From the IMG/VR virus record IMGVR_UViG_3300009488_000058, positions 1-27,692 of that record: a stretch of 27,692 bases of DNA; one strand, written 5' to 3'. Numbering within the stretch: position 1 is the first letter of the stretch; every line of letters begins with the position of its first letter. This document shows positions 4,765-25,114 of the stretch, piece after piece. The stretch comes from a virus. The notes beneath the pieces were generated by a model. The model worked only from the letters and a program-made list of their open reading frames with translations, was not told the origin of the DNA and ran no database searches. Position numbers and translations under genes: made by a program.

Positions 4765-4819
4765 TTTTAATTGTTATTAATATAATTAATATCTTATTAT
4801 TATAAAATATCAAGCTTAT

Positions 4820-5068: not shown

Positions 5069-5101
5069 AGTGTTTTTATTGTTTTTAATAAATTATAATA
5101 A

Positions 5102-9166: not shown

Positions 9167-9171
9167 AATAT

Positions 9172-9471
9172 TTATAATAAAATTTCAAATTTAATATTTC
9201 CACTTACATTTTTAATTATATTAACTTTAGCCCCTCTAGATTTTCCTGTTATAGAAACTCTTTGTATTTTTCCTTCACAAGAATATAGTTCGTCTTCCCA
9301 ATCAACAATTTTTTCTTTAATAACAAATTCATCTTCACTACTTCCACCTATACAACTAATAGTTCCCTCCAAAGGATAACCGTTTTTAATATCAAAAATT
9401 ATTTCTTCTTGTTCTCCAATTCCATCATAAACTTTTTTTATAGCTTCGTCTCTTTTTAATAGTATTATCAT
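9172..9471 (-). CDS. Small tail-region protein, unknown function
   Basis: A 99-residue, acidic, beta-prone protein (for example IIFDIKNGYPLEGTISCIGG and EGKIQRVSITGKSRGAKVNIIKNV) between two fibre-type genes, 5 nt apart on both sides. A structural or fibre-adaptor role is likely from context alone. No family is recognised. The alternating hydrophobic pattern suggests a small beta sandwich that could cap or connect fibres. Confidence 0.55.
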   Translation of the reverse strand: MIILLKRDEAIKKVYDGIGEQEEIIFDIKNGYPLEGTISCIGGSSEDEFVIKEKIVDWEDELYSCEGKIQRVSITGKSRGAKVNIIKNVSGNIKFEILL

Positions 9472-9476
9472 TTTAT

Positions 9477-10505
9477 TTAAAAGTAATTTCTATAATCTGT
9501 ATACGAAATTGTCGTCATTTCAAGATTGGTATATGTACCTGTTCCACCTGCTAAATATTGTATCAAAGAGGATATATTAGATGTAATTGTAGCTACTCCT
9601 GATGTAGAAACTCCTGTATCTAATGTACATAATCTTTTACTTGCACTTCCTAATTTATCTTTTATAGATAATATTGAATTACCACTAGATAGAGAAGGAA
9701 CTCCACCTATCTCAACATCAAGTTTTAAACCTGAAGGTGTTTTTGTATCTAAATCCGCTAATGTACCTGATGGAGATCCTGTACTTAATATATTAAGTGC
9801 AGTAGCTAATTTTATTTTTATTGTTCCATTTCCTAATAATTGCCCATTAAATCCATATAAATCTCCGCTACTATCTGTATCTAAACTCAATACTCTTCTA
9901 TAAGCTTTAACACTTTTTATATTTGCAATAGTTGGAGTTAATGAAATATCTAAATGCCATTGCATAGTATCGTCATCTTTTAAAAATCTAAATAGATGAT
10001 AAGTTGTATCAACTGCCAAAGCCCCACCATTTAAAGTAGGATAATCAATATCAGCTTCATCACTTGCTAATTCAATTATTGTTGTTCCATTTTCGCAAAT
10101 TGCTTGACCAGAACCCATATTTACTTGTTCGTCAGGAGTAGAGCCACTTGAAGGAACAAAACCAGTAATTCTATGTTTATAAAAAATTGGCATATAAAGA
10201 GTCCACCAAGTAGGCTCAAGTAATGGATTTTTATTTAAGTTTGTATTTTGTAAAGATTTATAAATAATACCACCTAATAAACAAAGTCCGCCTACTGGAT
10301 AAGTTTCAGTTGAAATCCATTCAGGAATACCATTTTTTGAAACATGGTCTGCTTGGTTAAATAATTTATTTATTGCCCAGTTCCACCATTGAAAAGGTGG
10401 TCTTTCTTCTATAAAACCTAAATCTATTTTAGAACCACTTGGGGCAACGCTTGAACCTACATCTGAACCCCATATATTAACAAAAATTTGTCTTATACCA
10501 CTCAT
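9477..10505 (-). CDS. Tail fibre / receptor-binding protein with a carbohydrate-binding-like segment
   Basis: A 342-residue protein. The N-terminus (1-55) contains a conserved-looking adaptor segment, FIEERPPFQWWNWAINKL, of the kind that fixes fibres to the wedge or gpI-like protein encoded directly upstream. Residues about 60-108 (P-E-W-x-S-T-E-T-Y-P-V-G-G-L... I-Y-K-S-L-Q-N-T-N-L-N-K-N-P... T-W-W) have the aromatic spacing of carbohydrate-binding type-5/12-like modules found on phage tails. The C-terminal two thirds are beta-rich and Gly/Ser/Thr-rich. Position after the DUF2612 gene supports a baseplate-proximal fibre. The glycan target cannot be inferred. Confidence 0.68.
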   Translation of the reverse strand: MSGIRQIFVNIWGSDVGSSVAPSGSKIDLGFIEERPPFQWWNWAINKLFNQADHVSKNGIPEWISTETYPVGGLCLLGGIIYKSLQNTNLNKNPLLEPTWWTLYMPIFYKHRITGFVPSSGSTPDEQVNMGSGQAICENGTTIIELASDEADIDYPTLNGGALAVDTTYHLFRFLKDDDTMQWHLDISLTPTIANIKSVKAYRRVLSLDTDSSGDLYGFNGQLLGNGTIKIKLATALNILSTGSPSGTLADLDTKTPSGLKLDVEIGGVPSLSSGNSILSIKDKLGSASKRLCTLDTGVSTSGVATITSNISSLIQYLAGGTGTYTNLEMTTISYTDYRNYF

Positions 10506-10518
10506 AATTATAACCTTA

Positions 10519-11136
10519 TTAACTTATTAATCTTCCTAAATAACCGCCACTATTTACATCATTCAAATCAGCAAAACCCGATACATCAGAAATAATATTA
10601 GGATTGTTTAAATCCGCAAACATAAAAGCAGGTAAATTTTCATTTACAGTAATATCAATTCCAACACCGCCAGCAACCGACCCATTAATTGTTTCTTTTA
10701 AAAAATCTTCTGATAAAACAAGATTTATACCTATAATATTTAAAATTATTTTAGCAGGAAAAAGTTCTGTTAAAACAACAAAATCCGCATTTGTCATTAA
10801 TTTAACAATATTTATTATATCATTAATTGAACCATCAGAATTATATTGCCCTATTCTTCCATATAAAATTTGTCTATAGTCATCATCATTTAAACCTTGT
10901 CTAGTAGTTGATAAATTATAACCTAAATTGTCTAATTGTTGACCAGTTGCAGAACTCAACCATCTTAAAAGATATAGTTGAAAAAGTGAATCTTCTAATT
11001 CGTCAAATTGTCTTGCAAAAATAGTAAGTAATTTTTGAAAATTTTCTTTTCCTTTATATTGTTGCAAAAGTTTTTCATTACCTATTGCTAGATAACTTGT
11101 TATTTTTTCTAATGTATTCCCTTCTTTACTGCCCAT
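10519..11136 (-). CDS. DUF2612-family baseplate wedge protein
   Basis: A 205-residue protein matching the DUF2612 pattern: an N-terminal helical part (NFQKLLTIFARQFDELEDSLFQLYLLRWL) followed by ATGQQLDNLGYNLSTTRQGLNDDDYRQILYGRIGQYNSDGS, which carries the family's G-x-Q-L-D-x-L-G and D-D-x-Y-R-x-x-L signatures. In Mu-like and P2-like tails the position after gpJ is taken by gp48 or gpI, which complete the baseplate wedge and accept the fibres. The start ATG overlaps the gpJ-like stop by one base (TAATG). Good family call; the detailed role is inferred from the cassette. Confidence 0.82.
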   Translation of the reverse strand: MGSKEGNTLEKITSYLAIGNEKLLQQYKGKENFQKLLTIFARQFDELEDSLFQLYLLRWLSSATGQQLDNLGYNLSTTRQGLNDDDYRQILYGRIGQYNSDGSINDIINIVKLMTNADFVVLTELFPAKIILNIIGINLVLSEDFLKETINGSVAGGVGIDITVNENLPAFMFADLNNPNIISDVSGFADLNDVNSGGYLGRLIS

Positions 11137-12314
11137 TAACTATTTACTATTATGTTTGCTAAACTAAAACTTGCTAATTCATTTTTACCAATTGAAACTG
11201 GTGTATCGGTTGTTGGTGTTGGAGTTAAAGCAAATAAAACTTCTACAACTCTAATTCCAGCTATTTCATTAATTGGATTAATAATTCCTTTTGCTCCATC
11301 TCTTAAAACATCTTGACCTATTGCAAAATCAGCACCCCAAGAAACAATGGCATCTTTAACTTGATCATCGCCATCAACTGGATATAAAACACCTTCATCA
11401 GGGTCAGTATTCGGAGTAATATTTACAATAACATATAAAGGTTTATCCGTTGGACGGTTAAAATTAATCGTATGATTTAAACCTTGATTATCTGTAATTA
11501 TTTCCGATTCACTTCCAAAAGTTTGAATTCCTGCGGATTTTGATTGAAATATTGCAGTTGCTATTTCTGTGTCATCGCCACCTTGCACAACTGATTCTAC
11601 AGAATGCGGTGGTCTTCCGTCTATATCAATCACATCATCTTCATTTTCAATAACTATAGCTTGAAAAACATTATCTAAATCTAAAATTGCTCTTCTTATT
11701 CCTTCAACGGGTGAAGTTCCTGATTTTTGTTTTTTATCTTCTGCACTTAATTTTGCTTCAGCATCCGTTTCAGAATCTCTTCCAACCGTAGCATCTGCCG
11801 AGTTAGAACCTGAAGTAATACCATCTATAGGGGTGTCAATTACTGTCAAAGTTCCAGATAATGCAATTTTTGCACCTGTTTCAGTTGCAGTCATTGTCAA
11901 ATTAATATTTCCACCTGCTGGGATAGTTTCTTCAGAAGTAGTTTCAAAAATTGTTAAAGAATCGCCAATGACGGACATTCTAAAACCTATTGGAATTACT
12001 GTTCCAGCTAATCCAATAATATTTTGAACTACGCTTGATTTTAATTTTCCCAATCTTTCATTATTTGTCAATGCAAGTGCATTATCTAAAGGAATACCTT
12101 CAGCGGTATTTTGATACATAGAATTATAAACACCTTCTTGACCGTCCCAAGCTTGACCTACTTGAAAACCAACAATAGTTATTATATTTCCTAAAGGGCT
12201 TTCATCTTCAACATCAATAGAAGGACCATAAGAACTTCTTGCATCGTCTCTCATTTCTTGTATGGCTATATCTCGTGTCTTTTTGTTAAATCCTGTTGGC
12301 GTTACTCCATACAT
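11136..12314 (-). CDS. Baseplate J-like protein
   Basis: A 392-residue protein with the standard gpJ layout. The N-terminal YGVTPTGFNKKTRDIAIQEMRDDARSSYG leads into a helical segment with GQAWDGQEGVYNSMYQNTAEGIPLDNALAL, the conserved A-x-G-x-x-L-D region. A central beta domain follows (about 100-165), then SAEDKKQKSGTSPVEGIRRAILDLDNV and the later beta domains. It forms wedge units around the hub and triggers sheath contraction. It is preceded by GAGG about 8 nt before the ATG, whose AT overlaps the gp25-like stop (TAATG). Length is normal for the family. Confidence 0.85.
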   Translation of the reverse strand: MYGVTPTGFNKKTRDIAIQEMRDDARSSYGPSIDVEDESPLGNIITIVGFQVGQAWDGQEGVYNSMYQNTAEGIPLDNALALTNNERLGKLKSSVVQNIIGLAGTVIPIGFRMSVIGDSLTIFETTSEETIPAGGNINLTMTATETGAKIALSGTLTVIDTPIDGITSGSNSADATVGRDSETDAEAKLSAEDKKQKSGTSPVEGIRRAILDLDNVFQAIVIENEDDVIDIDGRPPHSVESVVQGGDDTEIATAIFQSKSAGIQTFGSESEIITDNQGLNHTINFNRPTDKPLYVIVNITPNTDPDEGVLYPVDGDDQVKDAIVSWGADFAIGQDVLRDGAKGIINPINEIAGIRVVEVLFALTPTPTTDTPVSIGKNELASFSLANIIVNS

Positions 12315-12658
12315 TAAGAAACCTCTTCATTTATTTGTATATTTCCATTTACATTGGCGGAAATATTCATAGACCTATTATCATTTACTAATAAATTAAA
12401 TTTATCTAAACTTTCAACACTTTTTATACTTATTATCTCATTTTTATATAAACTTTCAATTAAATTAAGATTTTTATTTTTTCCCATTACTTCGGTTAAT
12501 ATAGGAACACCTTTAGAAGGTGTCAAATAACATTCTCCTCTAATTGTTCTTAATACAGTTTTGATTTTTTGTTCGACTTCTTCTTCTCTAATAACAAGAT
12601 TAAAAGAATTGTTTGTTATATCTAAGTCTCCATTGGAATCTAGTTTTAAACTGCTCAT
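12314..12658 (-). CDS. gp25/W-like (DUF2634-type) baseplate wedge protein
   Basis: A 114-residue protein with the family pattern: SNGDLDITNNSFNLVIREEEVEQKIKTVLRTIRGECYLTPSKGVPIL, i.e. G-D-L near the start, then E-x-V-x-Q-x-x-x-x-x-L-x-T-x-x-G-E with the usual W replaced by C, and G-x-P. Such proteins nucleate sheath polymerisation at the baseplate and sit, as here, between the spike and gpJ. It overlaps its upstream neighbour as ATGA. Assignment rests on motif plus conserved gene order. Confidence 0.75.
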   Translation of the reverse strand: MSSLKLDSNGDLDITNNSFNLVIREEEVEQKIKTVLRTIRGECYLTPSKGVPILTEVMGKNKNLNLIESLYKNEIISIKSVESLDKFNLLVNDNRSMNISANVNGNIQINEEVS

Positions 12659-13326
12659 TCTACCTTTGTTTTTGTTGCTAAAATAGAATTCGTTATAGGT
12701 GTGGCATCTGCTGTTGGAATATCAGTTGCTGGAGTTGGTCTACCGTGTGTATGTGTATCATATTCGCTAATTAGAGTTTGCAAAGCACTTAAAAGTAAAT
12801 CACCCAAAACCGCCTTTTCAGTAGCAGTAGAACCCAACTTAATCTCTGGTCCTTCTATCTCAATTTTACCATCATCTCCTATAATAACTTTACCATTTTT
12901 TAAAATTATTTGTAAAGAACTATTAATTGCCAATCCTTTCCCATCATACATAATTGAAGGCATAAAATAACAATCTGTTAAATGGTGTTTTCTATCGTCT
13001 TCAGGGTCTTGAATTTCTCCGCTTAATTGCCAATTTTTAATTGAACTTTCACTAAAAAATAATGTTCCTGTATCATCTTTATTTATTGGAATACTTATTA
13101 AAGCAACGGAAGTTCTTAAAAACATTATCGGAACATTAGAAATTATAGGTAAATTTTTATATTTTCCATCTATTTTACTTCTTATAAGAGGTTGAACATC
13201 TACGGTTCTATTTGTTAAATTTATTTTATTTATTCTTGCAGGCAAAGAAGTATGAACTTGAGCAATCCTATTTTCAATAGCTTTTTTAATAATATCCGCA
13301 GTTGTTAATTCTTCTTTTCTTATCAT
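12655..13326 (-). CDS. Gp138/gpV-type baseplate spike protein
   Basis: The cell-puncturing spike at the tail tip. The N-terminal half (after about 15 residues) is an OB-like domain (LPARINKINLTNRTVDVQPLI...). The second half has beta-helix-like repeats (KVIIGDDGKIEIEGPEIKLGS). The C-terminal part contains the D-T-H-T-H-G motif typical of spike tips that bind a metal through paired histidines. I chose ATG 13326 (about 223 residues) over the in-frame GTG at 13350, because GGGAGG lies upstream of 13326 and this start overlaps the hub stop as ATGA, as elsewhere in the operon. The longer form would add only eight residues. Confidence 0.8.
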   Translation of the reverse strand: MIRKEELTTADIIKKAIENRIAQVHTSLPARINKINLTNRTVDVQPLIRSKIDGKYKNLPIISNVPIMFLRTSVALISIPINKDDTGTLFFSESSIKNWQLSGEIQDPEDDRKHHLTDCYFMPSIMYDGKGLAINSSLQIILKNGKVIIGDDGKIEIEGPEIKLGSTATEKAVLGDLLLSALQTLISEYDTHTHGRPTPATDIPTADATPITNSILATKTKVE

Positions 13327-14132
13327 TCTACTATTAGCCTCCCTTCCCACATTCCCTCTTCATTATCTCCATTCATTATTGCTTGTCTGATTTGATAAAA
13401 TCCTTCAAAACCTTCTACATTTAAAGATACTGTTTTGTGTGGAATAAATTTTGTATCAATATGTGCTTTTAATAATAAACCGCCATCTTGTAATTCAACA
13501 GGTTTATCAATCAATCCGCTTTCATAACTTAATTCAAAAAAATCAATATTATTAGTTTCTCCTTTAGTAGAAATTAATAATTGATTGTTTTGTATACTCC
13601 ATTCAAAACCTAGACTACCTAAAACTATATTTAAAATATCAACACATCTTTCAAAAGCTACAAAACCCCCATTATATGTACCTGTAATTTTATTTAGTGT
13701 TGTTGTTAAAATATCTATATCTAATAAATTAATACAATCTTTTACAATAGTTCTTTTTTGTACTTTATTTATATAGCTTTTAGATAAAAAGGCTTCGGTT
13801 ATACCTTTTTCACTATCTCCAGCTTCAATAACAAAAACATTATCAACGTTTGGGTTTCCATAATATGCACGTTTTAAATCCCCAGTAAATAAAATATCTA
13901 ATTCTTCTTCAAAATATCCTGTTTCTAAGTCAATTTTTAAATTCTCTCTTTTTGAAAAATTTACAAAATCTTCCGAAGGATTAGTTATTTTTATTTCAGA
14001 TAAATTAGGAAAACTATTTATAGACTTTTCAACTTTAAATTCAATTTTGTTTTCAATAAGTTCAAAACTATCTTTTATAACTGTGTCTGTTATAGTTATT
14101 TTAGCATTTCTTTGAAAGGAAAAATCAGACAT
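13323..14132 (-). CDS. Baseplate hub protein (Mu gp44 / gpD-like)
   Basis: A 269-residue protein at the hub position between plug and spike. The N-terminal half is beta-rich and carries FTGDLKRAYYGNPNVDNVFVIEAGDSEKGI, like the split-barrel 'x-G-x-I-x-x-...-x-I-x-A-x-D' region of tail hub proteins. The centre has IVKDCINLLDIDI and CVDILNIVLGSLGFEWSIQNNQLLIS, a helix-beta unit typical of the second hub domain. The C-terminus reads GLLLKAHIDTKFIPHKTVSLNV...GFYQIRQAIMNGDNEEGMWEGRL, matching the usual ending (hub proteins often end K-H-x-G-D-x...G-x-W-x-x-x-L/V). It forms the trimeric adaptor between tube and spike. The call is by motif and context. Confidence 0.78.
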   Translation of the reverse strand: MSDFSFQRNAKITITDTVIKDSFELIENKIEFKVEKSINSFPNLSEIKITNPSEDFVNFSKRENLKIDLETGYFEEELDILFTGDLKRAYYGNPNVDNVFVIEAGDSEKGITEAFLSKSYINKVQKRTIVKDCINLLDIDILTTTLNKITGTYNGGFVAFERCVDILNIVLGSLGFEWSIQNNQLLISTKGETNNIDFFELSYESGLIDKPVELQDGGLLLKAHIDTKFIPHKTVSLNVEGFEGFYQIRQAIMNGDNEEGMWEGRLIVE

Positions 14133-14433
14133 TATAATATAACCTAACCTTTAACCCTAATTCCCCTTCTTCAGCATTTTCATTGTCGGCAGAAAAAGGC
14201 AAAAAGTCTCCTTGTGGAATTTCTAAATATTTATAATTTTTAGTTAATTGTACGTTGGTTAAAATTGGAATTCCTGAAATTATTAAATTCTTTACACTAT
14301 CCATAATGTTCATTGTATATCTACTAATTCTTGAATTATATATAATATCAAAAAAATATACTACTCCATCTACAACACTTGAAAATTGATAATCTGTTAA
14401 AGTTGGATCAGTTGGTATTTCAAAAGTAGCCAT
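14125..14433 (-). CDS. Baseplate plug protein (Pam3 gp18-like)
   Basis: A 102-residue beta protein: FEIPTDPTLTDYQFSSVVDGVVYFFDIIYNSRISRYTMNIMD, then an IPIL...YLEIPQGDFLPFSADNENAEEGELGLKVRLYY ending. This is the pattern of the small plug protein of simple contractile baseplates (as in cyanophage Pam3): an F/Y-x-x-x-V-x-L-x-Y-N-x-R-x-x-x-W/Y-x-x-D core and a C-terminal 'L-G-x-x-x-x-L-x-Y'. It closes the tube lumen at the hub. It overlaps the hub gene by 8 nt, and its start meets the upstream stop at position 14433 (TAATG). Confidence 0.72.
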   Translation of the reverse strand: MATFEIPTDPTLTDYQFSSVVDGVVYFFDIIYNSRISRYTMNIMDSVKNLIISGIPILTNVQLTKNYKYLEIPQGDFLPFSADNENAEEGELGLKVRLYYNV

Positions 14434-15068
14434 TAAGAACCTCCGAATTTTGATAAAGTTTCAAATAATAGTGAACCTGATTGCGTTACTTTTTCTTTTA
14501 ACTTTTTAAAACCTTTTTTTGTCTGTCCGCTTGTGCTTTTAGATTTTAAAACCATTTGTTGCATAGATACTGAAAATATCAAACAAGTTTGAGAATCTGT
14601 TCTCTCTTCAACAACAATTGAAGTAAAAAACATATTTTGATAAACTTTTAATCCACTTACAACATCAAAAGGTATTTTATTATTTCTTAATTCTAATAAT
14701 TTATTGAAAAAATCTTGTCTTCTATTTGTAGATCCATGTAAAAGAAAATTACTTAATTTAGTGACATATTTTCCTGAAAACTCCTGAAATAATGGATTGG
14801 AAGGCAAAACACTTGAAATAGTACCTGCAATATTTCCAAGCAAAGAAACTGGTGTATTACTTATTCTACAAGTCATACTTAATTCAACAGGTAAATTTTT
14901 AATATTGTCATTTGTTGAGTTTAAAGTTCCTATTTGAGAAGAAATATCAGAAGTCATATTATGAGTTATATTTTCAACAAGTTCAATATCCATAAGAACT
15001 TCGCCATTTGATTTTTGAAAACCAAAAGGGGTTCTTTTTGATAATAAACTTATTAAAGCACCTGCCAT
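14433..15068 (-). CDS. Dit-like / baseplate hub-initiator protein
   Basis: A 211-residue protein between the tape measure and plug genes. It opens ALISLLSKRTPFGFQKSNGEVLMDIELVENITHNMTSDIS and has a beta-rich body with VVSGLKVYQNMFFTSIVVEERTDSQTCLIFSVSMQQM, resembling Dit-like tail protein N-terminal domains: 'T-x-x-...-Y-x-N-M-x-I-x-x-x-x-x-x-R-x...L-x-F-x-x-x-x-x-E/Q' in relatives. It would form the ring that starts the tube at the baseplate. The Lys/Ser-rich C-terminal tail (about 175-205) is likely flexible. An equivalent gene occupies this slot in other DUF3383-type myophages. Moderately sure of family, surer of role by position. Confidence 0.65.
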   Translation of the reverse strand: MAGALISLLSKRTPFGFQKSNGEVLMDIELVENITHNMTSDISSQIGTLNSTNDNIKNLPVELSMTCRISNTPVSLLGNIAGTISSVLPSNPLFQEFSGKYVTKLSNFLLHGSTNRRQDFFNKLLELRNNKIPFDVVSGLKVYQNMFFTSIVVEERTDSQTCLIFSVSMQQMVLKSKSTSGQTKKGFKKLKEKVTQSGSLLFETLSKFGGS

Positions 15069-15080
15069 AGTATCCTTTTA

Positions 15081-16523
15081 TTATATCATTGTTCTTAAGC
15101 TTTGGTTTAAAGAATTTTGTAAACCGTTTTCTATTCCTGTTGAAACATCTTTAATTAAAGTTTGTCCTCTGCCTTTAGAATTGTCAATATTTACTGTTAT
15201 TTTTGGACTTTGAACGATAGCACTATTATTTGTACTACTTGAATTATTATTAGATGTTTTAGGTGCTAAATTTTGACCAAACGGATTTGTTATAAAATCT
15301 GATGATGGTTCGCCTTTTTCATCTTTACCAAAGATATTTTTAACTTTATTGAAACTATTTTTTGCAAAATCTACAATTCTTGTAAAAGGTGCTGATAATA
15401 ATTCCCAAATTTTCTCACCAATAAAAGTAAAGACTTTTATTACATCAGTTCCAAAATCTTTAAATTTTTGTAAAATAATTCCTGTTACAGAATTTCTTCC
15501 TTGAAAAAATGCAATAATATCGTCTATCAATAAACCTATTGCTAAAGCTATTGCTGTTATTAAAGCAACCATTCCAATTAAAGGTGCAAAAGCTATTGCC
15601 CAACTAAGAGCCATAGATAAAGCAGTTATAATCATTTGTGCTTTTAAAATTGCAAGTATTCCGACTAAACCTAATATTCCTAATCCTAAAATTTTTACCC
15701 AAGGTAAAATAATTAAAATAGCATTTACTAATCTTATTTGTATTTCAATAATAAATTGACGTATTGGAGATAAAATTGTTCCTATTGCAATTTTTAAATC
15801 ATTAAATCTTTTTGTTAATAATTTACTTCTATTAGAAGCACTATCGGAAGTTCTTGTATAATCTCCTATTGAGTTTTTGGATTGTCTTATAATTAAATCT
15901 AAAGTAATTTGTGCTTTTTGTTGTCGTGTTAATTCTGTAGTTATTCCTCTTATACTAGCCTCCCTTTTAACATCTGAATCTAAAATTGCAATTCCCAATA
16001 ATTTTAAACTTTCTTTTTCTCCGATTAAAGCTTTCGTAATTGCAATTGATGCTCTTGTACTTCCTCCTTGAATATTAGTAAATGAAGCTAAATCTACAGC
16101 CATTTTTTGAACTTCATTACTTAATTCTAATGCTTTTTCTTGTGTAAAACCAAATCCTGACAATAAATCACCAGTATCAGATAAAAGTTTATTAGATTCA
16201 TTCCTTGCTAATCCATAATTCTTTCTTAAATTTTCGGCAAACATTTTTGCTTTCTCATTTACTTTAGAAAAAACAACATCAAATTTATTTTGAGTTTCTA
16301 CTGCGTCCTCTGCCAATTTTGTCCACTCGTTACCAATGCTTATAAGTTTCTTAGCAACTCTTAATACTTGAAAACCAGCAAATAATTTTAATGAAGTTTT
16401 CACAAGAGGATTTAATTCTTGAAAACTAGATTTGAGTCCTTTTGCTGATTTTTCTATTTGTTCAAGTTTTTTAGTATCACCTTTAAAAACAAACTCTGTA
16501 ATAATTTCCCTTAAAGTAGCCAT
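15081..16523 (-). CDS. Tail tape measure protein
   Basis: A 480-residue protein that sets tail length and is ejected at infection. The N-terminus is helical and coiled-coil-like (FKGDTKKLEQIEKSAKGLKSSF, 13-34). The central part has NSIGDYTRTSDSASNRSKLLTKRFNDLKIAIGTILSPI (217-254), the characteristic tape-measure segment ending in the 'G-x-x-L-x-P' turn. Hydrophobic membrane-spanning segments follow (about 262-295 and 305-340), then a Ser/Asn-rich linker (405-440). No lytic domain is present. For a tape measure it is short; at the usual rule of about 1.5 angstrom per residue the tail would be roughly 70 nm. Its ATG sits one base after the stop of the frameshift extension ORF (16525-16617), the standard chaperone-to-tape-measure arrangement. 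Confidence 0.85.
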   Translation of the reverse strand: MATLREIITEFVFKGDTKKLEQIEKSAKGLKSSFQELNPLVKTSLKLFAGFQVLRVAKKLISIGNEWTKLAEDAVETQNKFDVVFSKVNEKAKMFAENLRKNYGLARNESNKLLSDTGDLLSGFGFTQEKALELSNEVQKMAVDLASFTNIQGGSTRASIAITKALIGEKESLKLLGIAILDSDVKREASIRGITTELTRQQKAQITLDLIIRQSKNSIGDYTRTSDSASNRSKLLTKRFNDLKIAIGTILSPIRQFIIEIQIRLVNAILIILPWVKILGLGILGLVGILAILKAQMIITALSMALSWAIAFAPLIGMVALITAIALAIGLLIDDIIAFFQGRNSVTGIILQKFKDFGTDVIKVFTFIGEKIWELLSAPFTRIVDFAKNSFNKVKNIFGKDEKGEPSSDFITNPFGQNLAPKTSNNNSSSTNNSAIVQSPKITVNIDNSKGRGQTLIKDVSTGIENGLQNSLNQSLRTMI

Positions 16524-16524
16524 A

Positions 16525-16617
16525 TCATTTTTTATTAATTTGTTTTTCTTCTAAAAAATTCATATAATCTAGTGCATCGTGGCAATCCATTAAATCTTGA
16601 AAATTCCAAGTATTCAT
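16525..16617 (-). CDS. -1 frame extension of the tail assembly chaperone
   Basis: The -1 reading frame downstream of the chaperone encodes MNTWNFQDLMDCHDALDYMN... (30 residues from ATG 16617) and ends at TGA 16527-16525, one base before the tape measure start. It is open upstream without a stop back to the slippery site, so a -1 slip at 16644-16638 adds 37 residues (beginning GTDPKVI) to the first 170 chaperone residues, giving a 207-residue fusion. The W-x-x-x-D-L-x-D-x-x-x-A-L-D-x-x-x-x-x-E-E pattern looks coded and resembles the short C-terminal 'T' extensions of other phage chaperones. It may also be translated on its own from ATG 16617, but no Shine-Dalgarno sequence is visible. Too short for ordinary gene callers. 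Confidence 0.75.
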   Translation of the reverse strand: MNTWNFQDLMDCHDALDYMNFLEEKQINKK

Positions 16618-16619
16618 TA

Positions 16620-17147
16620 TTACTTTGGGGTCTGTGCCTTTTTTAAGATAGATTCGCCAAACGTACCAGTTGATTTTTGGAATCCGATTATCATTTTGCT
16701 TACTTTCTCCTTTCCCATTAGATTTTTTAGAAGACCAATAAAAAAATTCTTATAGTAAACCTCTATAATTTTAATAATTACTAAATACATTATATCAGGT
16801 CTTCCTTTTAAGTGAAAAATTTCGTTTAATTCTTTTTCGCCAGTTTTTTCAATAACTTTTATATATTTTTTATGTGTTTCAAAAAATCCTAATAAATACT
16901 CAACATCAAGATTATTCATTAAACCACTTATAGCACTTAACAAACAAGGTAGATATTTTGAAATATCATCGTCTAAACTACCTTTTATATTATCAATAGA
17001 TCCTTTTAAAGAACTTGTTATTTTTTGTCCTAAAATATGAAATTGAGGAAAACTTAATTTTAAAGGTATTTCTTTAAAAGATAGTTTTAATTCTTCTCCA
17101 TCTTCAATCTCTAAATCTAATTCGTATGGAAATACTAATTTTTTCAT
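16620..17147 (-). CDS. Tail assembly chaperone (G-type, short form)
   Basis: A 175-residue protein between tail tube and tape measure, the slot of the lambda gpG-type chaperone that coats the tape measure before tube polymerisation. The N-terminus is beta-like (KLVFPYELDLEIEDGEELKLSFKEIPLKLSF). The rest is helical with a Leu-rich core (YLPCLLSAISGLMNNLDVEYLLGFFETHKKYIKVI). The C-terminus, FGESILKKAQTPK, spans the slippery site at K169-K170, so most ribosomes should make this 175-residue form and a minority the 207-residue fusion. AAGG lies 7 nt before the ATG. The family itself is not recognisable by eye; position plus the frameshift make the role convincing. Confidence 0.78.
   Translation of the reverse strand: MKKLVFPYELDLEIEDGEELKLSFKEIPLKLSFPQFHILGQKITSSLKGSIDNIKGSLDDDISKYLPCLLSAISGLMNNLDVEYLLGFFETHKKYIKVIEKTGEKELNEIFHLKGRPDIMYLVIIKIIEVYYKNFFIGLLKNLMGKEKVSKMIIGFQKSTGTFGESILKKAQTPK
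16638..16644 (-). promoter_or_regulatory. Programmed -1 frameshift site A AAA AAG
   Basis: On the minus strand the zero-frame codons are TTA AAA AAG, giving the heptamer A AAA AAG at 16644-16638, identical to the slippery site of E. coli dnaX. It lies 5 codons before the chaperone stop (TAA 16622-16620). A weak downstream stem, CCAA(A)G (16628-16623) with CTTGG (16610-16606), could stimulate slipping; its strength is doubtful. The -1 frame is open for 37 codons to the tape measure start. Confidence 0.75.
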
Positions 17148-17161
17148 TTATACCTTTATTT

Positions 17162-17563
17162 TTAAGTTAATTCTTGACCTGAACCATAAATTGCCCAAGC
17201 TCTTTCACCTATTTTTTTGCCACCTACTTTTGTAGCTGGTTTTACAAATTTACACCCTGTCATAGAAACTCTTTCGCCAGAATGTTCGTCATCATAATAA
17301 CAAGGAAATAAACCACCTGAAGCTTTTAATCCTCTTAAATATTTATTATCTTCACTATTTGGCATTACTGAAAAAGTTAAATCATAAAGAACACTATTGC
17401 TTTCATTATTAACAACAGAACCATCTAAACCCTCTGTTGGCTCATTATCGTCATTTCTTTTTTCAAGAGAAACTTCACTATCCTCAAAAAAATTTTCAAT
17501 AGATTTAGTTCCTATAATTAATTTTAAATCCTTTATATTATAATTATCTGTTGGAGTTGGCAT
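17162..17563 (-). CDS. Tail tube protein (DUF3277-like)
   Basis: A 133-residue protein with the layout of DUF3277-type tube proteins: YNIKDLKLIIGTKSIENFFEDSEVSLEK at the start (the family pattern is D-L-x-V-x-x-G-x-x-x-I-x-G-F-x-E), then a beta-rich body including LYDLTFSVMPNSEDNKYLRGL (strand followed by S-E-D/N-x-x-L helix) and FPCYYDDEHSGERVSMTGCKFVKPA (the D-x-x-G...x-x-x-x-x-I-x-x-P pattern). It polymerises into the rigid tube inside the sheath. AGAGG lies 6 nt before the ATG. It directly follows the sheath gene, as in all such cassettes. Confidence 0.82.
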   Translation of the reverse strand: MPTPTDNYNIKDLKLIIGTKSIENFFEDSEVSLEKRNDDNEPTEGLDGSVVNNESNSVLYDLTFSVMPNSEDNKYLRGLKASGGLFPCYYDDEHSGERVSMTGCKFVKPATKVGGKKIGERAWAIYGSGQELT

Positions 17564-17584
17564 TTTAAACCTCTTTTTTAATTG

Positions 17585-19261
17585 TTAAAAACTCAAATTA
17601 ATTTGTATTTCGGCTTTTTGTATAGCACCTGCAAATCTAGCAGTTGCTTGTATAGTTCCGAATTTTCTTGATTCTCTTTGTGCTGAAGTTAAATCATTAA
17701 CATCAGGAGCGGTAACAACTGGAACTTCATCATCAGATAAGAAACCATTACTTACACCTTCATTCAATCTGTTATAAACAGCATTTACAAGAACAGCTAC
17801 GCCTTTGTTTGTATATGGTATTTTATCCTCTAAAGCGAATAATTCAAAAATATCAAGTTCCATATTACTTTGTAACCAATCAGAACCTCTTGTTATATCA
17901 AAATATTCACCTCCTATTGTTTTTCCTCCGTTTTGTGCTGGAGAAAGAACATCAAGACCACCAATTCTTGTATACCAATTTACATTATTTGTTTGTAAGA
18001 ACCCTAATACTGCATCTTGATTTACATAATCATCAACCAAACCAAGTTTAGATTTTTGATATGACCAAGTTATAGATCCTGCGTTTTTATCTCCATTTGC
18101 ACCAATTAAACCATCATTTAAATAATTTGCTAATTGTGGAGTATAAGTTCCAAAAGTTCTTATAACATCTTCTGCTAAGTTTCCTCTATCAGTTGCTTTT
18201 TTTATAATATCAACCGCAATATTATCCGTGCTATTTGTTGTCAAACGAATGTCTGCGGTATTGAAGAAAAATGCTTTTTTATATTCCCAATTTTCTATAA
18301 AATCAGATAGATCAACAACTTCTGCATTATCAACAAAATCTCTTGCGTATATTACCATGTAGTAATCTTGAAAAGCCAAAGCAGTCAAATAAGCCTTTGC
18401 AGTATTGTTTGGGAAACTTGTATCTTCTGCCCAAGTTCCGCCTGCCTGCGTAGCTCCTAGTGTAACAACAATGTCTTCTAGTGATATTTCTCTGTTATCA
18501 ATACAAGTTATTTCAATGCTTAAAAATGGCGTTGTTGCAACAACAGCGCTTTCAATATAAGGACTTACCTCTAATGCTAATGCTATCAAACCCATTGTAG
18601 TTTCGTGATCCGTTGTAAAAGTAATCGGACTCATTGCGGTTTTTACTTCATTATGAGTAATATTTAAATTCACAACATTTAAAGCAATCAAATCAGCATC
18701 AAAAGTTAATGTGCTTATTTGTCTTGCAAGTCCAGTTTGTAATAAAGTTGTATCATTAACCGCTAAAGTGAAATCAGTTGTTGCAACATCTGCTCTTAAT
18801 TCTATATAATCAGTTGTTGCGACATAAACGGCGGTTACTGGTTCAGAACCAGCATTTATTAAAGTTGCCAATCCTTCGGCAATTAATAATTTTGTACTTG
18901 AAGTTGCTGAAAAAGTAAATGAAGTTCCATTTATCGTAACTATATAATTTCCATCTTCATTATCTAAAACATCAATTCTTGCATTTGAAGGCAAACGTCC
19001 AATATATGCTTTTTCAGGTGAAAGCATTCTTGCACCGTTATTATCTCTTGTTGTGTTATCAAAAATTGCTTTCATTCTTAAATACTCAACGCTATCTGTT
19101 GCAAAATCCGCTTCTACTTGTTGAATATTTACATATTCTTTATAAGTATCTGCAAATTTATTATGATAACTTAATAAAAATGGTGTTCCGAAACCTTCTC
19201 TATTTACACCTGCTTGACCTTTTACAATATTTACTACTACTATATTATCTAATTGACTCAT
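17585..19261 (-). CDS. DUF3383-family tail sheath protein
   Basis: A 558-residue contractile sheath protein. It starts MSQLDNIVVVNIVKGQAGVNREGFGTPFLL, the usual DUF3383 opening (L-x-x-I-V-x-V-x-I). The C-terminal half has the conserved core YYMVIYARDFVDNAEVVDLSDFIENWEYKKAFF and FATIQA-like ending (FGTIQATARFAGAIQKAEIQINLSF). Two similar alpha/beta insert modules lie at about 104-176 and 181-280; the second is shared with the capsid cement protein at 23007-23831. GGAGC lies 4 nt before the ATG. The gene overlaps its upstream neighbour's end by 4 nt. Monomers stack around the tube and contract to drive it through the host envelope. Confidence 0.88.
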   Translation of the reverse strand: MSQLDNIVVVNIVKGQAGVNREGFGTPFLLSYHNKFADTYKEYVNIQQVEADFATDSVEYLRMKAIFDNTTRDNNGARMLSPEKAYIGRLPSNARIDVLDNEDGNYIVTINGTSFTFSATSSTKLLIAEGLATLINAGSEPVTAVYVATTDYIELRADVATTDFTLAVNDTTLLQTGLARQISTLTFDADLIALNVVNLNITHNEVKTAMSPITFTTDHETTMGLIALALEVSPYIESAVVATTPFLSIEITCIDNREISLEDIVVTLGATQAGGTWAEDTSFPNNTAKAYLTALAFQDYYMVIYARDFVDNAEVVDLSDFIENWEYKKAFFFNTADIRLTTNSTDNIAVDIIKKATDRGNLAEDVIRTFGTYTPQLANYLNDGLIGANGDKNAGSITWSYQKSKLGLVDDYVNQDAVLGFLQTNNVNWYTRIGGLDVLSPAQNGGKTIGGEYFDITRGSDWLQSNMELDIFELFALEDKIPYTNKGVAVLVNAVYNRLNEGVSNGFLSDDEVPVVTAPDVNDLTSAQRESRKFGTIQATARFAGAIQKAEIQINLSF

Positions 19262-20019
19262 ACCTGCTCCAAATTTAAGTTAATATCAGCACTTAATGCG
19301 GAAACCATAGAATTATTAAATTCATCTGTGGTATAGCATAAAATGTCTAAACTATGTCTTTGCTCATAGGTGTTATTAATCAAAGCATTAACATCTGTAA
19401 TTCCTTGAGAGCTTGCAAATGAAACCCCCTTATTTTTACAAAAACTTACAACTTCATCTAATTTTAAACTACTTTCTAAAAAATTAAGATAATCAAAACT
19501 ATCGCCTCCGAAAGCTTGAATATTGATTGTAAACTCTTTTAAATCTTTAATATCATATAATTCAGTAGAAGAATTATATTTTATATTATTACCACTACTA
19601 AGACTATCTACTCCATTTATAATTTTCAATGATAAATATGTTGCGTTTGGTTGTGGAGAACTTAAATCTTGTAAAGATATCTTTCCGTCAAGATAAGGAG
19701 TGAATTTTAAATTATCACTTAATTCAAAGAAAAAGAAATAATTTGTAATTGATTTTGTAATAACCATTTTATCACTAACAATCGCCGAAGTAGTTTGTAA
19801 AGTTTTATTTAACCAAGCAGTATTTAAAGCTGTTAGAATAATTAAAGCAGTATCGCTTGCCTGTGCGATATAACTTATTTTTTGCCATAAAGTATTAATA
19901 TAATATTCTTGACCTTCAACAATGGTTGAAACATCAATAGTAATTGTTTGTGGTATATTTGATAAGATCCAATGTAAACATTGTAAAATTTTTTCTTGTA
20001 ATTCGGATTTATTCAACAT
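19258..20019 (-). CDS. Tail terminator / neck protein (gp12-like)
   Basis: About 253 residues. I chose ATG 20019 (MLNKSELQEKIL...) over the in-frame start at 20043 because GAGGAGG (20035-20029) lies 9 nt upstream. It begins with a helix (LQEKILQCLHWIL), continues through a beta domain, and carries Y-I-N-T-L-W-Q-K-I-S-Y-I and FFFFELSDNLKFTPY. The C-terminal third (GVSFASSQGITDVNALINNTYEQRHSLDILCYTTDEFNNS...V) matches neck/terminator proteins, with the 'R-x-x-L-D-I-x-x-x-Y' pattern before a beta strand and helix. It sits directly upstream of the sheath gene, where the tail terminator that caps tube and sheath is expected. Confidence 0.65.
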   Translation of the reverse strand: MLNKSELQEKILQCLHWILSNIPQTITIDVSTIVEGQEYYINTLWQKISYIAQASDTALIILTALNTAWLNKTLQTTSAIVSDKMVITKSITNYFFFFELSDNLKFTPYLDGKISLQDLSSPQPNATYLSLKIINGVDSLSSGNNIKYNSSTELYDIKDLKEFTINIQAFGGDSFDYLNFLESSLKLDEVVSFCKNKGVSFASSQGITDVNALINNTYEQRHSLDILCYTTDEFNNSMVSALSADINLNLEQV

Positions 20020-20401
20020 CTCTATTCGCCTCCTCGTTATCAACTAAAATAGCAAATTGTCTAAAGAATTTTATATCATAATTTCCAGTTGACCAATCTT
20101 GATTTTGAAAAACTTCATAAGATCTATTATTATATGTAAATCTATCGCCTTTCATTTTTTCTTTATCATTTGTGATATTTAATGCACTATCAGTATAAAC
20201 TTTTATAACTTCGCTATTTCTAACTGCTTCAGGTAATAATAATCTATCTTTTTCTTTCATTGGTTGAATGCACAAATCAACTTTTATAACTTCATTATCT
20301 CCATCAACAAATAAACCGCTATTATTATCATAACTTCCAGCAGTTGTTTGTCTTGTAATGTCAACTTTAGAATGTGTTATAAATTCGCTTATATTTGTCA
20401 T
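20009..20401 (-). CDS. Head closure / head-tail stopper-like protein
   Basis: A 130-residue, beta-rich protein (VDLCIQPMKEKDRLLLPEAVRNSEVIKVYTDSAL...GDRFTYNNRSYEVFQNQDWSTGNYDIKFFRQ). The pattern I-Q-P, L-P-E...R, V-Y-T-D, G-D-x-F-x-Y-x-G/N-x-x-Y-x-V and a W before the last strand are usual for the small beta-barrel head completion proteins that join portal complex to tail. It lies between the gp10-like and tail terminator genes, in line with this role. It overlaps its neighbours by 4 and 11 nt. The exact family is not identified. Confidence 0.62.
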   Translation of the reverse strand: MTNISEFITHSKVDITRQTTAGSYDNNSGLFVDGDNEVIKVDLCIQPMKEKDRLLLPEAVRNSEVIKVYTDSALNITNDKEKMKGDRFTYNNRSYEVFQNQDWSTGNYDIKFFRQFAILVDNEEANRDVE

Positions 20402-20913
20402 TTCATAATTACTTTATTAGTCATAGCTTGTCTTAATTGTCCTTCATCAATCAAAGGTCTTGAACTTCCTTTTTTCTTAATTGTAGATGGTGCATTCGGT
20501 GCTAAAGTACCATCAGTAAATTTTAACTTCATAGCACCTTCAATAAAAACACCTAGTAATTTAAAAGTATTCTCAAAAGTAGTTTGCCCTTTTATAATTC
20601 TATCATATTCTTTCAAAACTAATTTCATAGCATCTTTTTCCTTTTCCTTTGTAGTGCTTCTTAAAATACTTCTTTGAGAAATAGAAACTGTGTGATTGCG
20701 ACCTGCTTTTCTTCCGCTTCCTGTTGGATTGTTTGGAACTCCGAATTCGTGAATTGCCATTAATCCAACATTATCAATATTTCCTTTATTTAATTTTCTT
20801 TGCTTAATATCAGAAAATACCCCAACTTGAACTTTTGGTTTTAATTTCAAAAGTTTTAAATGTTCTACAAAAACATCCATTCCTAAATCTACAATTTTAA
20901 CTTTGAATGCCAA
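20398..20913 (-). CDS. gp10-like tail completion protein
   Basis: A 171-residue protein with the well-known pattern VGLMAIHEFGVPN (A-x-I-H-E-F-G), SISQRSILRST (the 'I-P-x-R-S-F/I-L-R' turn), a central helix and RPLIDEGQLRQAMTNKV (P-L-I-D-x-G-Q-L-R-x-x-I/M-T) at the C-terminus. This is the HK97 gp10 / Mu-G-like head-tail completion family. The start is a TTG at 20913, supported by GGGAG (20926-20922) 8 nt upstream; it overlaps the DUF4054 gene by 17 nt. An internal ATG at codon 12 is possible but would lack a good binding site. Confidence 0.82.
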   Translation of the reverse strand: MAFKVKIVDLGMDVFVEHLKLLKLKPKVQVGVFSDIKQRKLNKGNIDNVGLMAIHEFGVPNNPTGSGRKAGRNHTVSISQRSILRSTTKEKEKDAMKLVLKEYDRIIKGQTTFENTFKLLGVFIEGAMKLKFTDGTLAPNAPSTIKKKGSSRPLIDEGQLRQAMTNKVIMK

Positions 20914-21250
20914 AGATTGGTCTCCCTGCTTTATTAATTAGACTATTTTTAATTGCTAAATATTGTTGTCCGTAATTAGTAGAACCAAAACCCTCCCCAC
21001 CACTTCCACTTTTTCTATATTCTCTTTCCATTACATCAGTTTTTATTTTTGTGGCATCACCTTTTCCACTACTTGTATTTAATGTAAGAAAATGTGCGGT
21101 TAAATAACTAACCGCACTATCGTATTTACTACCATATTTACTTTCACAAATTAAAGATTTTGCTGTGGTTATATGAATAGTTATTAAAGAGTCTTCCAAA
21201 GAGGAAAACTGCGGAAACATAGCTTTTATGGTTGTCGCAGTTACGCTCAT
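20897..21250 (-). CDS. DUF4054-family head-tail connector
   Basis: A 117-residue helical protein with the DUF4054 pattern: IKAMFPQFSSLEDSLITIHITTAKSLI (F-P-x-F near the start), AVSYLTAHFLTLNTSSGKG (the long A-x-x-x-L-x-A-H-x-L helix) and YGQQYLAIKNSLINKAGRPIFGI (Y-G-x-x-Y...R) at the end. It forms a ring below the portal and is the first connector gene after the capsid module. Its start is immediately adjacent to the upstream stop. Firm family call. Confidence 0.87.
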   Translation of the reverse strand: MSVTATTIKAMFPQFSSLEDSLITIHITTAKSLICESKYGSKYDSAVSYLTAHFLTLNTSSGKGDATKIKTDVMEREYRKSGSGGEGFGSTNYGQQYLAIKNSLINKAGRPIFGIQS

Positions 21251-21772
21251 TTATTCCTCCCCTTCTTCTTCTTCTTCACTTTCATTTTCGTCTTCTTCTT
21301 CAGAACCTTCAGCTTCTTCTTTTGCTTTTTTCTCAGCCTCTTTAATCAAAGCGACTCTATCAGGATAACTTTTTCCGCCAACTTTTATTTTTAATTCTTT
21401 ACATTTAGCATTAACAACAGCTTTTTGTTCTTTAGAAAGTTCGCCAAGTTGTTTTTCGTCAAAAGTTCCAATAATTTCATTGATTTTTACAGAATCAATT
21501 ATTTTATCTTTATCAACTTGTTTAATTCCAGCAGGCATTGAGTTTTCTAATTCTTGTTTAATTGCTTTTTCCTTATTTTTAAGGATTTTAATATGAGCAG
21601 GCTTTCCATTGTGAGATTTAAGAAGGCTTTGAAACAAAGGATGTTTTTCCAAACTTTCAAATAAATTTGACTCAATTTTATTCGGGCCCGGCAAAATTAT
21701 TAAATTACCAATAGAGTAGCAATGTTTAGTTCTATTATAAATTATTATAGGTTTTTTTTCTATTATAGGCAT
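21251..21772 (-). CDS. Capsid-module protein with acidic C-terminal tail
   Basis: A 173-residue protein. The N-terminal 70 residues form a small beta-type unit (YSIGNLIILPGPNKIESNLFESLEKHPLFQSLL) similar to the next upstream small protein (21763-21972). The middle part is helical, with a short LDR/SAP-like segment (IGTFDEKQLGELSKEQKAVVNAKCKELKIKV...YPDRVALIKEAEKKA) that reads like the helix-extended-helix units found in phage capsid-neighbour proteins. The last 25 or so residues are nearly all Glu/Asp/Ser. It may be a decoration, scaffold-like or connector-accessory protein. Position between major capsid and DUF4054 genes is typical for such accessory proteins. Confidence 0.55.
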   Translation of the reverse strand: MPIIEKKPIIIYNRTKHCYSIGNLIILPGPNKIESNLFESLEKHPLFQSLLKSHNGKPAHIKILKNKEKAIKQELENSMPAGIKQVDKDKIIDSVKINEIIGTFDEKQLGELSKEQKAVVNAKCKELKIKVGGKSYPDRVALIKEAEKKAKEEAEGSEEEDENESEEEEEGEE

Positions 21773-21972
21773 TTTTTCCTTTTTATTAAGATTATTAAAT
21801 TTTTATCAATAAGTTCTTTTATTAAAGAATGCTTTTTTGAATTTTCTTTTGATTTAAAACTTTCGTATAAATCTTTATCAATTTCAGTTTTACCAACTTT
21901 TATTAAAAAACCATCAATCAAAAAAGTATTCTTTTTAAAATTAGTTATAAAATATTCAAATTTTTTTGACAT
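21763..21972 (-). CDS. Small capsid-module protein, paralogue of downstream N-terminus
   Basis: A 69-residue basic protein. TFLIDGFLIKVGKTEIDKDLYESFKSKENSKKHSLI aligns by eye with YSIGNLIILPGPNKIESNLFESLEKHPLFQSLL of the downstream 173-residue protein: both have strand, G, strand, G, x-x-x-I, x-x-x-L-F/Y-E-S, then helix. It overlaps that gene's start by 10 nt and lies 8 nt after the major capsid stop. Likely a minor capsid or decoration component arisen by tandem duplication; the function is unknown. Confidence 0.5.
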   Translation of the reverse strand: MSKKFEYFITNFKKNTFLIDGFLIKVGKTEIDKDLYESFKSKENSKKHSLIKELIDKNLIILIKRKKCL

Positions 21973-21980
21973 ATTTTTCC

Positions 21981-22997
21981 TTAAATATTTTTTCCATAAG
22001 CAAAAGCTAAAGGTTGAAAAATATCACAACCGCCAGTTTCCATTTCGGATGGGTTTCTAATTTCTAATCCTTGCTGATAAGAAGGTTGAACCTTGTAAGG
22101 CATTGGCTGTTGAACTTCAACAGTTTCTTTATTAACATTTGCAGCAATCATCATAGAACCAGTTAAAGCACCGCCAGCAGGACCAAGTATTCCATTAGCT
22201 GTCAAAATAGCTTGTGCTAATTGTCTAACTTGTATAAATCTAACATTAGGGAAAATTCCTTGTACACTTGCTAAAATTTTTGTATTATCAGTTGTACTAA
22301 GCGATGTACAAGCAATATGTTGATAATGAGTTGTTGGTAAATATAACCTATTCGCTAATTGAGTTTCTTTTGAAGTATTTTCAATACTATTTAAAATACC
22401 GCAAATATCAGCAACTATTTGAGCAGGGGTTTTTTTTGCAATACCACCTACTAACCAAGCAGTATTTGGAGTTCCTGAACCAACTGTTGAAACTGCATAT
22501 TCAGTAATATTTGAGTTATTATAAAAACCTAAAACATTTCTTACAGCATTTCCGAACTGAATAGTATCATTAAATAAGCTCATATGAGCTCTTTTAGAAG
22601 CACTCATCAATCTAGTATTCAATTTACGACCAGCTAATTTTGCACTTCTCAAATCTTTAAAAGTCCAAGCAAATTCGTTTGCTGAATTTAAGATTTTTGC
22701 TATAATTTCTGCAACATCAAGACCTACACGTGGTAAATCATCAGCTCCATTTGAAATATATTTTGCAAGACCTAAGGCATTATATATTTTGTATTTATAC
22801 CATTCTGTACCTTCTGGTAGTTCAAAAGATATTGGCAACATATTTCCATTAGCCCATTGTAAAGATGGATAAACAGTTTCAAGAGCAAGTTTTTTAGTTC
22901 TTATTAATTCGCTTTTAAGAAAAGTATCATCTTCTTTTTTCCAAGGTTTATTTATGTCTTGATTTTTAAAAGCACTATCTAAATATATTCTATACAT
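21981..22997 (-). CDS. DUF2184-family major capsid protein
   Basis: A 338-residue HK97-fold capsid protein of the DUF2184 group. Landmarks: the N-arm YRIYLDSAF, then the P-I-S-F-E-L-P-E-G-T-E-W-Y-K-Y-K segment, DDLPRVGLDVAEIIAKILNSANEFAWTFKDLRSAKLAGRKLNTRLMSASKRA (a conserved long stretch ending L...R...A.R), LYLPTTHYQHIACTSLS (P-x-x-x-Y), and a C-terminal MPYKVQPSYQQGLEIRNPSEMETGGCDIFQPLAFAYG that closes with R-x-x-x-x...G-G-x-x-x-x-x-P-L-A. AGGA precedes the ATG at good spacing. It is the third gene after a putative promoter at about 25045, with protease-scaffold and cement genes in between, so stoichiometric overproduction is plausible. Confidence 0.85.
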   Translation of the reverse strand: MYRIYLDSAFKNQDINKPWKKEDDTFLKSELIRTKKLALETVYPSLQWANGNMLPISFELPEGTEWYKYKIYNALGLAKYISNGADDLPRVGLDVAEIIAKILNSANEFAWTFKDLRSAKLAGRKLNTRLMSASKRAHMSLFNDTIQFGNAVRNVLGFYNNSNITEYAVSTVGSGTPNTAWLVGGIAKKTPAQIVADICGILNSIENTSKETQLANRLYLPTTHYQHIACTSLSTTDNTKILASVQGIFPNVRFIQVRQLAQAILTANGILGPAGGALTGSMMIAANVNKETVEVQQPMPYKVQPSYQQGLEIRNPSEMETGGCDIFQPLAFAYGKNI

Positions 22998-23006
22998 ATT
23001 TTTCCT

Positions 23007-23831
23007 TTAGTTTAAGTTAATAGAAACAGCACCGATACCATCAGCACTAATCTTATCTAATACACGAACCGTTCCAGTAGGTGCAACTGTAGCAGTTGAA
23101 CTATCTGAATCACTTCTTATTCTTCCGATATTATCAGTATGAACAGAGGTTGCAGTTTCAGCAATCGTTGCTGTAACTTGACCAGCACCAAGAGTAACTA
23201 CCCAATCAGACAAATCTTCATCACCTGCATCTAGTTTTGTAGTCATCGTGATAATATTACCTGTGAAAGTACAAGTTAAAACATCTGAATTTGCTAATAA
23301 AATAGCATCACAAATCAACTGCATTGTTGTAGCGTGGTCAGTTGTAAAAGTAACTGGAGCAATTGCTATTCCGCCAACTTTACCATTTATAACATTTAAA
23401 GAAACCAAAACACCACTCCAAGTCAAAGTTTGAACTTGTTTACGTCCAGCATGTCTAATATAAATAGCACTTGCAGGAGTCATTGCATCTTCAGGAGACA
23501 TATATATTGACCCTTCTTTTAAAACGCCAACGTCTTCGCCAATTGTAAAATCCCTTACACCTTCACCACCAGAATTATCAAGTTCTACATTAGGAGTTGG
23601 TCTTGTTCTATCGTGTACCGTAACACCCCATAATTTACCAAGAGCAACATCACCAGTCGCAGAAATCTTTTTAATTTGTTCCGCTGGTTTTGTTCCTAAT
23701 TTAACAAAAATACCAGTTTTCATTATTTCTTCAGCTACCATTGACTGTTGGTATTTTGGTTTAGAGTTTGCAATTGCACCTACTATTCCAACTGCAAAAC
23801 CTTCGCTTACGCTTGTTTGTACTTTACTCAT
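23007..23831 (-). CDS. Capsid cement/decoration protein (DUF2190-like) with inserted sheath-like module
   Basis: A 274-residue protein between protease and major capsid genes, where cement or decoration proteins lie in this phage group. The outer parts (1-130 and 227-274) look like the beta-barrel structural cement proteins: GFAVGIVGAIANSKPKY, KISATGDVALGKLWGVTV, GVLKEGSIYMSPEDAMTPASAIYIRH, and a C-terminal VRVLDKISADGIGAVSINL. Residues about 131-226 (QVQTLTWSGVLVSLNVI...PVTFTTDHATTMQLI...DWVVTLGAGQ) match residues 181-280 of the tail sheath, at DNA level too, and look like an inserted module. AAAGGAG lies 7 nt before the ATG, the strongest binding site of the capsid block, and the start overlaps the upstream gene by 8 nt. 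Confidence 0.65.
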   Translation of the reverse strand: MSKVQTSVSEGFAVGIVGAIANSKPKYQQSMVAEEIMKTGIFVKLGTKPAEQIKKISATGDVALGKLWGVTVHDRTRPTPNVELDNSGGEGVRDFTIGEDVGVLKEGSIYMSPEDAMTPASAIYIRHAGRKQVQTLTWSGVLVSLNVINGKVGGIAIAPVTFTTDHATTMQLICDAILLANSDVLTCTFTGNIITMTTKLDAGDEDLSDWVVTLGAGQVTATIAETATSVHTDNIGRIRSDSDSSTATVAPTGTVRVLDKISADGIGAVSINLN

Positions 23832-24987: not shown

Positions 24988-25021
24988 AATACGTAAGAAT
25001 ATATTGAGGTGTGTTAATATT

Positions 25022-25049
25022 AGTCTAGTATAAATTTTAGCATTGTCAA
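25022..25049 (-). promoter_or_regulatory. Candidate promoter for the capsid block
   Basis: On the minus strand a perfect -35 TTGACA (25049-25044) is followed after 16 nt by TAGACT (25027-25022), a 4/6 match to the -10 consensus. A TATACT also overlaps the spacer but is too close to that -35. This gap (24988-25110) is the only sizeable one in the head region, and it directly precedes the protease-scaffold, cement and major capsid genes. Moderate confidence, because TTGACA is rare by chance but the -10 is weak. Confidence 0.45.
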
Positions 25050-25081
25050 ATAAAAAGTTTATCCTATACTTTTAACTATGG

Positions 25082-25114
25082 ATAGGCAACTTTATAGGTG
25101 TTGTTGTTGCCTAT
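25082..25114 (-). repeat. Inverted repeat across the head morphogenesis stop codon
   Basis: ATAGGCAAC (25082-25090) and GTTGCCTAT (25106-25114) are perfect 9-bp arms around a 15-nt loop; the second arm contains the TAG stop of the head morphogenesis gene. On the minus strand the hairpin is followed by CCATAGTTAAAAG, not a T-run, so it is not a standard terminator. It could be an RNA-stability or attenuation element, or a protein-binding site, between the packaging/portal genes and the capsid genes. Confidence 0.5.

Follow-up and report, generated by a model that had tools for sequence, protein, structure and literature searches.

Programmed −1 frameshifting in the tail assembly chaperone gene is a textbook feature of tailed phages, and the question raised by the locus considered here is whether its chaperone is also made as a longer fusion and, if so, at which point in the gene the ribosome would change frame. 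The window, by which is meant the whole stretch of viral DNA that was analysed (27,692 nucleotides), carries in order a DUF3383 tail sheath, a phrog_280 structural protein in the tube position, the chaperone, an extension in the −1 frame and the tape measure protein. The original prediction proposed a −1 fusion of the λ G/GT type with a hidden extension, generated by slippage on the heptamer A AAA AAG. The fusion and an extension are strongly supported by the present analysis, whereas the slip position is not: judged from the sequence, the slip would very probably occur ~100 bases earlier, again producing a longer form of the chaperone. The probability that a minority of ribosomes slip −1 on T TTT TTT, yielding a 207-residue chaperone fusion, is put at about 0.87 (features in Table 1).

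Table 1. Features of the chaperone locus, numbered as in the window
Feature	Positions	Strand	Basis or remark
Zero-frame tail assembly chaperone (TAC), 175 aa	17147-16620	minus	ORF; PHROG 1613 tail assembly chaperone, E 0.0011
Shine-Dalgarno (SD)-like GAGG, proposed 5′ stimulator	16763-16760	minus	13 nt before slip site; family-wide enrichment
T TTT TTT, proposed −1 slip site, zero-frame Phe135-Phe136	16746-16740	minus	Same site in relatives
−1-frame extension, 71 codons + TGA	16740-16525	minus	Open frame, profile match, three-helix model
Whole frameshift fusion (predicted), 207 aa = 1-136 + 71	17147-16525	minus	
A AAA AAG heptamer	16644-16638	minus	Not conserved; at most a secondary slip site
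Further in-frame heptamers A AAA AAT and G GGA AAG	16728-16722; 16716-16710	minus	Not found in L003
Tape measure protein, 480 aa	16523-15081	minus	PHROG tape measure families, best such E 8e-12

Organization of the chaperone locus

As in λ G/GT, the chaperone gene lies between the major tail/tube gene and the tape measure gene, and a −1 ORF overlaps its 3′ end and stops near the tape measure start. The −1 frame is open over 10944-11166 in reverse-complement numbering and ends, as had been predicted, in a TGA one base ahead of the tape measure ATG (TGA T ATG at 16527-16521). In the closest distinct relative, L003, the extension stop overlaps the tape measure start (TAATG at 8788-8794). With the stop abutting or overlapping this start, there could be coupling between the end of fusion translation and initiation of the tape measure protein. 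Against the Pfam family Phage_TAC_15 (PF21822), which has a gathering cut-off of 22 bits, the window chaperone scores 18.7 bits (E 0.0026), its L003 counterpart, 37% identical to it over the full length, scores 36.9 bits, and that of a further relative, L006, scores 59.8 bits.

Elsewhere in the window, a domain of ~100 residues is common to the tail sheath (17585-19261, residues 180-279) and to a protein encoded at 23007-23831 (residues 131-225), between a capsid-like ORF and an ORF of 387 aa; the two copies are 40% identical (E 2e-11), and the L006 sheath is shorter and without most of this domain. Two IMG/VR contigs, 3300028835_000191 and 3300028835_001423, match window positions 13959-27692 and 2139-13180, respectively, at 99.99-100% identity, so that the same phage is present there in two pieces.

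Candidate slip sites and chance expectation

An open frame together with an in-frame heptamer was rejected as proof in its own right, since the A+T-rich genome of this phage contains many heptamers. In the 24 other genes of the window, 114 in-frame X XXY YYZ heptamers occur in 7279 codons, nine of these genes having one within their last 43 codons, and a lone heptamer therefore means little. The last 43 codons of the chaperone gene, which constitute the overlap, hold five: T TTT TTT, A AAA AAT, G GGA AAG, A AAA AAG and C CCA AAG. The openness of the −1 frame exceeds chance expectation, with a probability of ~0.05 across the overlap, as judged by synonymous recoding, and of ~0.03 over the 31 codons past the chaperone stop. 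For T TTT TTT in the window, the Asn-Phe-Phe sequence and codon usage alone give a probability of 0.66, which counts against this site.

A AAA AAG is present in the chaperone zero frame exactly where the original prediction placed it, and the −1 frame behind it reads GTDPKVIMNTWNFQDLMD...QINKK, 37 codons to the TGA. The predicted fusion length of 207 residues is likewise correct, and is the same for either site because any −1 slip in the overlap reaches the same stop; the two products differ at residues 137-170. The original prediction overlooked ~37 further open codons of the −1 frame, which precede A AAA AAG and extend from just before the T run. The conserved −1 domain begins before A AAA AAG, and the extension therefore comprises not 37 codons, as first described, but 71, counted from T TTT TTT.

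Comparison with L003, whose sheath is 66% identical to that of the window, was decisive for the position of the frame change. The −1 frame of L003 reads INWWFWRVVLK...NWTLDDLLDCHDALDY, its window counterpart being INWYVWRIYLK...TWNFQDLMDCHDALDY, and the L003 zero frame stops at 8633-8635, where INWWFWR begins, so that the change of frame must lie earlier. T TTT TTT is the sole in-frame heptamer of the L003 overlap and stands at the same Phe-Phe as in the window. The motif DCHDALDY was found only in the window's kin contig and the L003 contig.

The extension as a conserved domain

When a profile built from six other extensions, four of them found through similarity to the window, was compared with the six window frames, only the −1 ORF matched (E 2.4e-7), and the alignment starts upstream of A AAA AAG. 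An AlphaFold2 model of the extension has three helices, at residues 25-34, 38-44 and 47-70, with block-mean pLDDT of 86-96 over residues 21-70; a slip at A AAA AAG would begin the extension at residue 35. A check for conservation of the extension, as had been suggested, found W28, R29, D49, D52, E55, A56 and D58 kept in at least 90% of 58 sequences.

The extensions of relatives match phrog_4364 in 49 of 53 cases and Pfam DUF6889 (PF21829) in 34 of 58. That of the window matched neither family at E 0.01 or better, and that of L003 reached E 0.021 at best against phrog_4364; by sequence, the window extension is related to DUF6889/phrog_4364 and is not counted as a member. A Foldseek comparison of the model with the PDB revealed no resemblance (best E 5.8), a profile search of PDB sequences with the extension returned nothing, and no mention of DUF6889 was found in the literature searched.

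Conservation of the proposed slip site among relatives

Compared with annotated phages, the 71-residue extension gave weak matches (E 2-8) in 15 records. In the four records examined (Manatee Spring phage, Aminobacter phage Erebus and two Rhizobium phages), the match is in the −1 frame relative to the chaperone, immediately ahead of the tape measure gene, and is preceded by T TTT TTT or T TTT TTC at Phe-Phe. Felix-like, Erwinia, Klebsiella and Faecalibacterium phages and Pseudomonas phage MiCath, all reached through the sheath or tube rather than the extension, have the same heptamer at the same Phe-Phe, and T TTT TTN occupies the homologous position in nine annotated-phage loci. The Otagovirus, Pakpunavirus and Acinetobacter phages examined have the −1 relation with no strict X XXY YYZ heptamer, and in Funu2 no −1 extension could be matched.

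When five extensions were used as queries, 80 viral and 11 genome loci were recovered, two of which ended too early to test. At each of the remaining 89, a −1 reading of the extension is possible that overlaps a chaperone-like ORF, although L032, L045 and L064 were assigned under a rule that sought only the −1 relation. As in λ G/GT, the slippery site is conserved among relatives: 56 of 68 non-redundant loci have T TTT TTN in the zero frame, with another heptamer in seven and none in five, so that T TTT TTN is absent from 12. Elsewhere in the chaperone frames of these relatives, T TTT TTN occurs five times in 10,591 codons, and at six annotated-phage loci with a G+C content above 0.5 codon usage gives it a chance of 4-8% each. 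The extension is also kept in the −1 frame of L006 (sheath 37-43% identical), where A AAA AAA lies five codons further on. At L029, L038, L039, L047, L060 and L110 it is kept, but the conserved position reads no more than T TTT and then A, G or TAC, a sequence that suggests slippage on a shorter T run in this minority. In the distant, G+C-rich L012, a small ORF follows the chaperone (1420-1867) in the +1, not the −1, frame; this locus was left out.

A tblastn search of the phage collection with the chaperone and a sheath-alignment search of the genome collection gave no matches, and viral contigs searched with the chaperone, capsid and portal yielded near-identical contigs only; in these contigs the sheath query added L003 and L006, and a baseplate protein query added L012.

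Candidate stimulatory signals

An SD-like tetramer (GGAG, GAGG, AGGA or AAGG) ending 8-14 nt before the T run is found at 49 of 66 sites, where 23.7 would be expected from synonymous recoding of the upstream codons with local usage (z 8.5, a value that overstates independence, given the common ancestry of the sites). No comparable excess was seen at 14 upstream control positions in the same gene (z −3.1 to 1.9). The GAGG of the window, with its 13-nt spacer, falls within the 8-14 nt of dnaX-type 5′ SD elements and uses GAG where GAA is six times commoner. Such elements are known stimulators in dnaX and in many IS elements (PMC5009743).

The stable 3′ hairpin of the dnaX type was not found in the window, as the RNA 3′ of T TTT TTT folds unremarkably (z +0.9 and +1.3); nor does any fold stand out 3′ of A AAA AAG (z −0.8), where a stimulatory structure had been suggested. 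In L003, a hairpin (8522-8581; z −3.6 versus shuffles) lies directly 3′ of T TTT TTT, and stimulators may thus differ between close relatives. Downstream structure as a family-wide stimulator is unsupported, the mean z being −0.9 with 12 of 66 loci below −2.

Alternative explanations

Slippage on A AAA AAG, in which only the last 37 residues of the fusion would differ from the chaperone, now appears improbable. This heptamer lies in frame and, among those compared in E. coli, shifts most readily, U UUU UUU being far less prone to do so (PMC5009743); the latter point weighs against the T run. However, the product of a slip on A AAA AAG would be without the conserved helix 1 and W28-R29, the zero frame of L003 ends before the equivalent position, and a check of its conservation located A AAA AAG in the overlap of none of the 89 relatives. 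It may act as a secondary slip site.

It is less probable still that the extension forms a small, independently initiated gene and that no fusion is made. A small hypothetical protein in its own right is what the annotation of several relatives shows at this place, and extension codon 42 of the window is an ATG. This is, however, the first start of the window −1 frame, in which, as in that of L003, no ATG, GTG or TTG precedes W28-R29; in 32 of 50 loci checked no start lies between slip site and motif, and the −1 frame of relatives is open back into the chaperone gene, with a conserved T run. The least probable explanation is that RNA polymerase slips on the seven Ts of this A+T-rich gene, so altering the mRNA that normal translation then gives the fusion. 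Bacterial transcription slippage is known on runs of nine As or Ts (PMC5009743), but in 41 of the 56 loci with T TTT TTN the final base is C, A or G, so that a seventh T is missing from the 3′ end, and the fixed spacing of the SD-like element points to the ribosome.

Proposed mechanism and comparison with known systems

In the favoured reading, ribosomal slippage on T TTT TTT, most ribosomes would terminate at the stop codon of the chaperone itself, releasing the 175-residue form. A minority would slip back one base on the heptamer while decoding the two Phe codons, probably aided by pairing of GAGG with the 3′ end of 16S rRNA, and would continue as YWSSKK... to the shared TGA. The resulting fusion would consist of chaperone residues 1-136 followed by an extension of 71 residues, most of it helical. 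If λ gpG/gpGT is taken as the model, the short chaperone and the fusion would each associate with the tape measure protein as the tail is assembled, and the scarcer fusion would use its extension to bring in tail-tube subunits.

The window locus joins the known chaperone frameshifts of the λ type (Levin 1993; Xu 2004, 2013, 2014, as reviewed in PMC5009743). In common with λ, the chaperone gene stands just before the tape measure gene, the proposed −1 slip lies near its 3′ end and the predicted fusion ends beside the tape measure start. In contrast to λ, the phage of the window is contractile, as indicated by its DUF3383 sheath, its conserved site is T TTT TTT rather than G GGA AAG (although the latter is also present in the window) and a 5′ SD-like element is proposed. 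A 2025 paper inferred a −1 frameshift with a GTTTTT site at the chaperone locus in Vandenendeviridae (Pakpunavirus Adele) and in Andersonviridae (PMC12846349). These loci resemble the present one in gene order, in the −1 frame, in the T-run site at the chaperone 3′ end and in an extension that is usually annotated as hypothetical or absent from annotation. They are, however, very distant from the window, the site being GTTTTT as against T TTT TTT in the window and its nearest kin, and an SD-like element, as proposed here, is not mentioned in the passages of that paper that were consulted. The 5′ SD-like element ~10 nt before the slippery heptamer is shared with E. coli dnaX (PMC5009743, PMC3711429), which differs in its heptamer, in the 3′ hairpin that the window is without and in that the shifted product here would be the longer one.

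Implications

The corrected site and the full extension redefine the targets of any reporter or mass-spectrometry test. A limited literature search found neither the SD-like element nor DUF6889/phrog_4364 as a frameshifted half, which is weak evidence that these are new. It is likely that phages of the Phage_TAC_15 type, a large group, share a single cassette, in which T TTT TTN at a conserved Phe-Phe is preceded at 8-14 nt by an SD-like GAGG or GGAG, and hence that DUF6889/phrog_4364 is the C-terminal domain of a frameshifted chaperone rather than a protein apart, probably its tube-recruiting half. The SD-like element and the T run at Phe-Phe together provide a simple rule for annotation and, if this is true, DUF6889 and phrog_4364 could be annotated as the portion that frameshifting adds to the chaperone.
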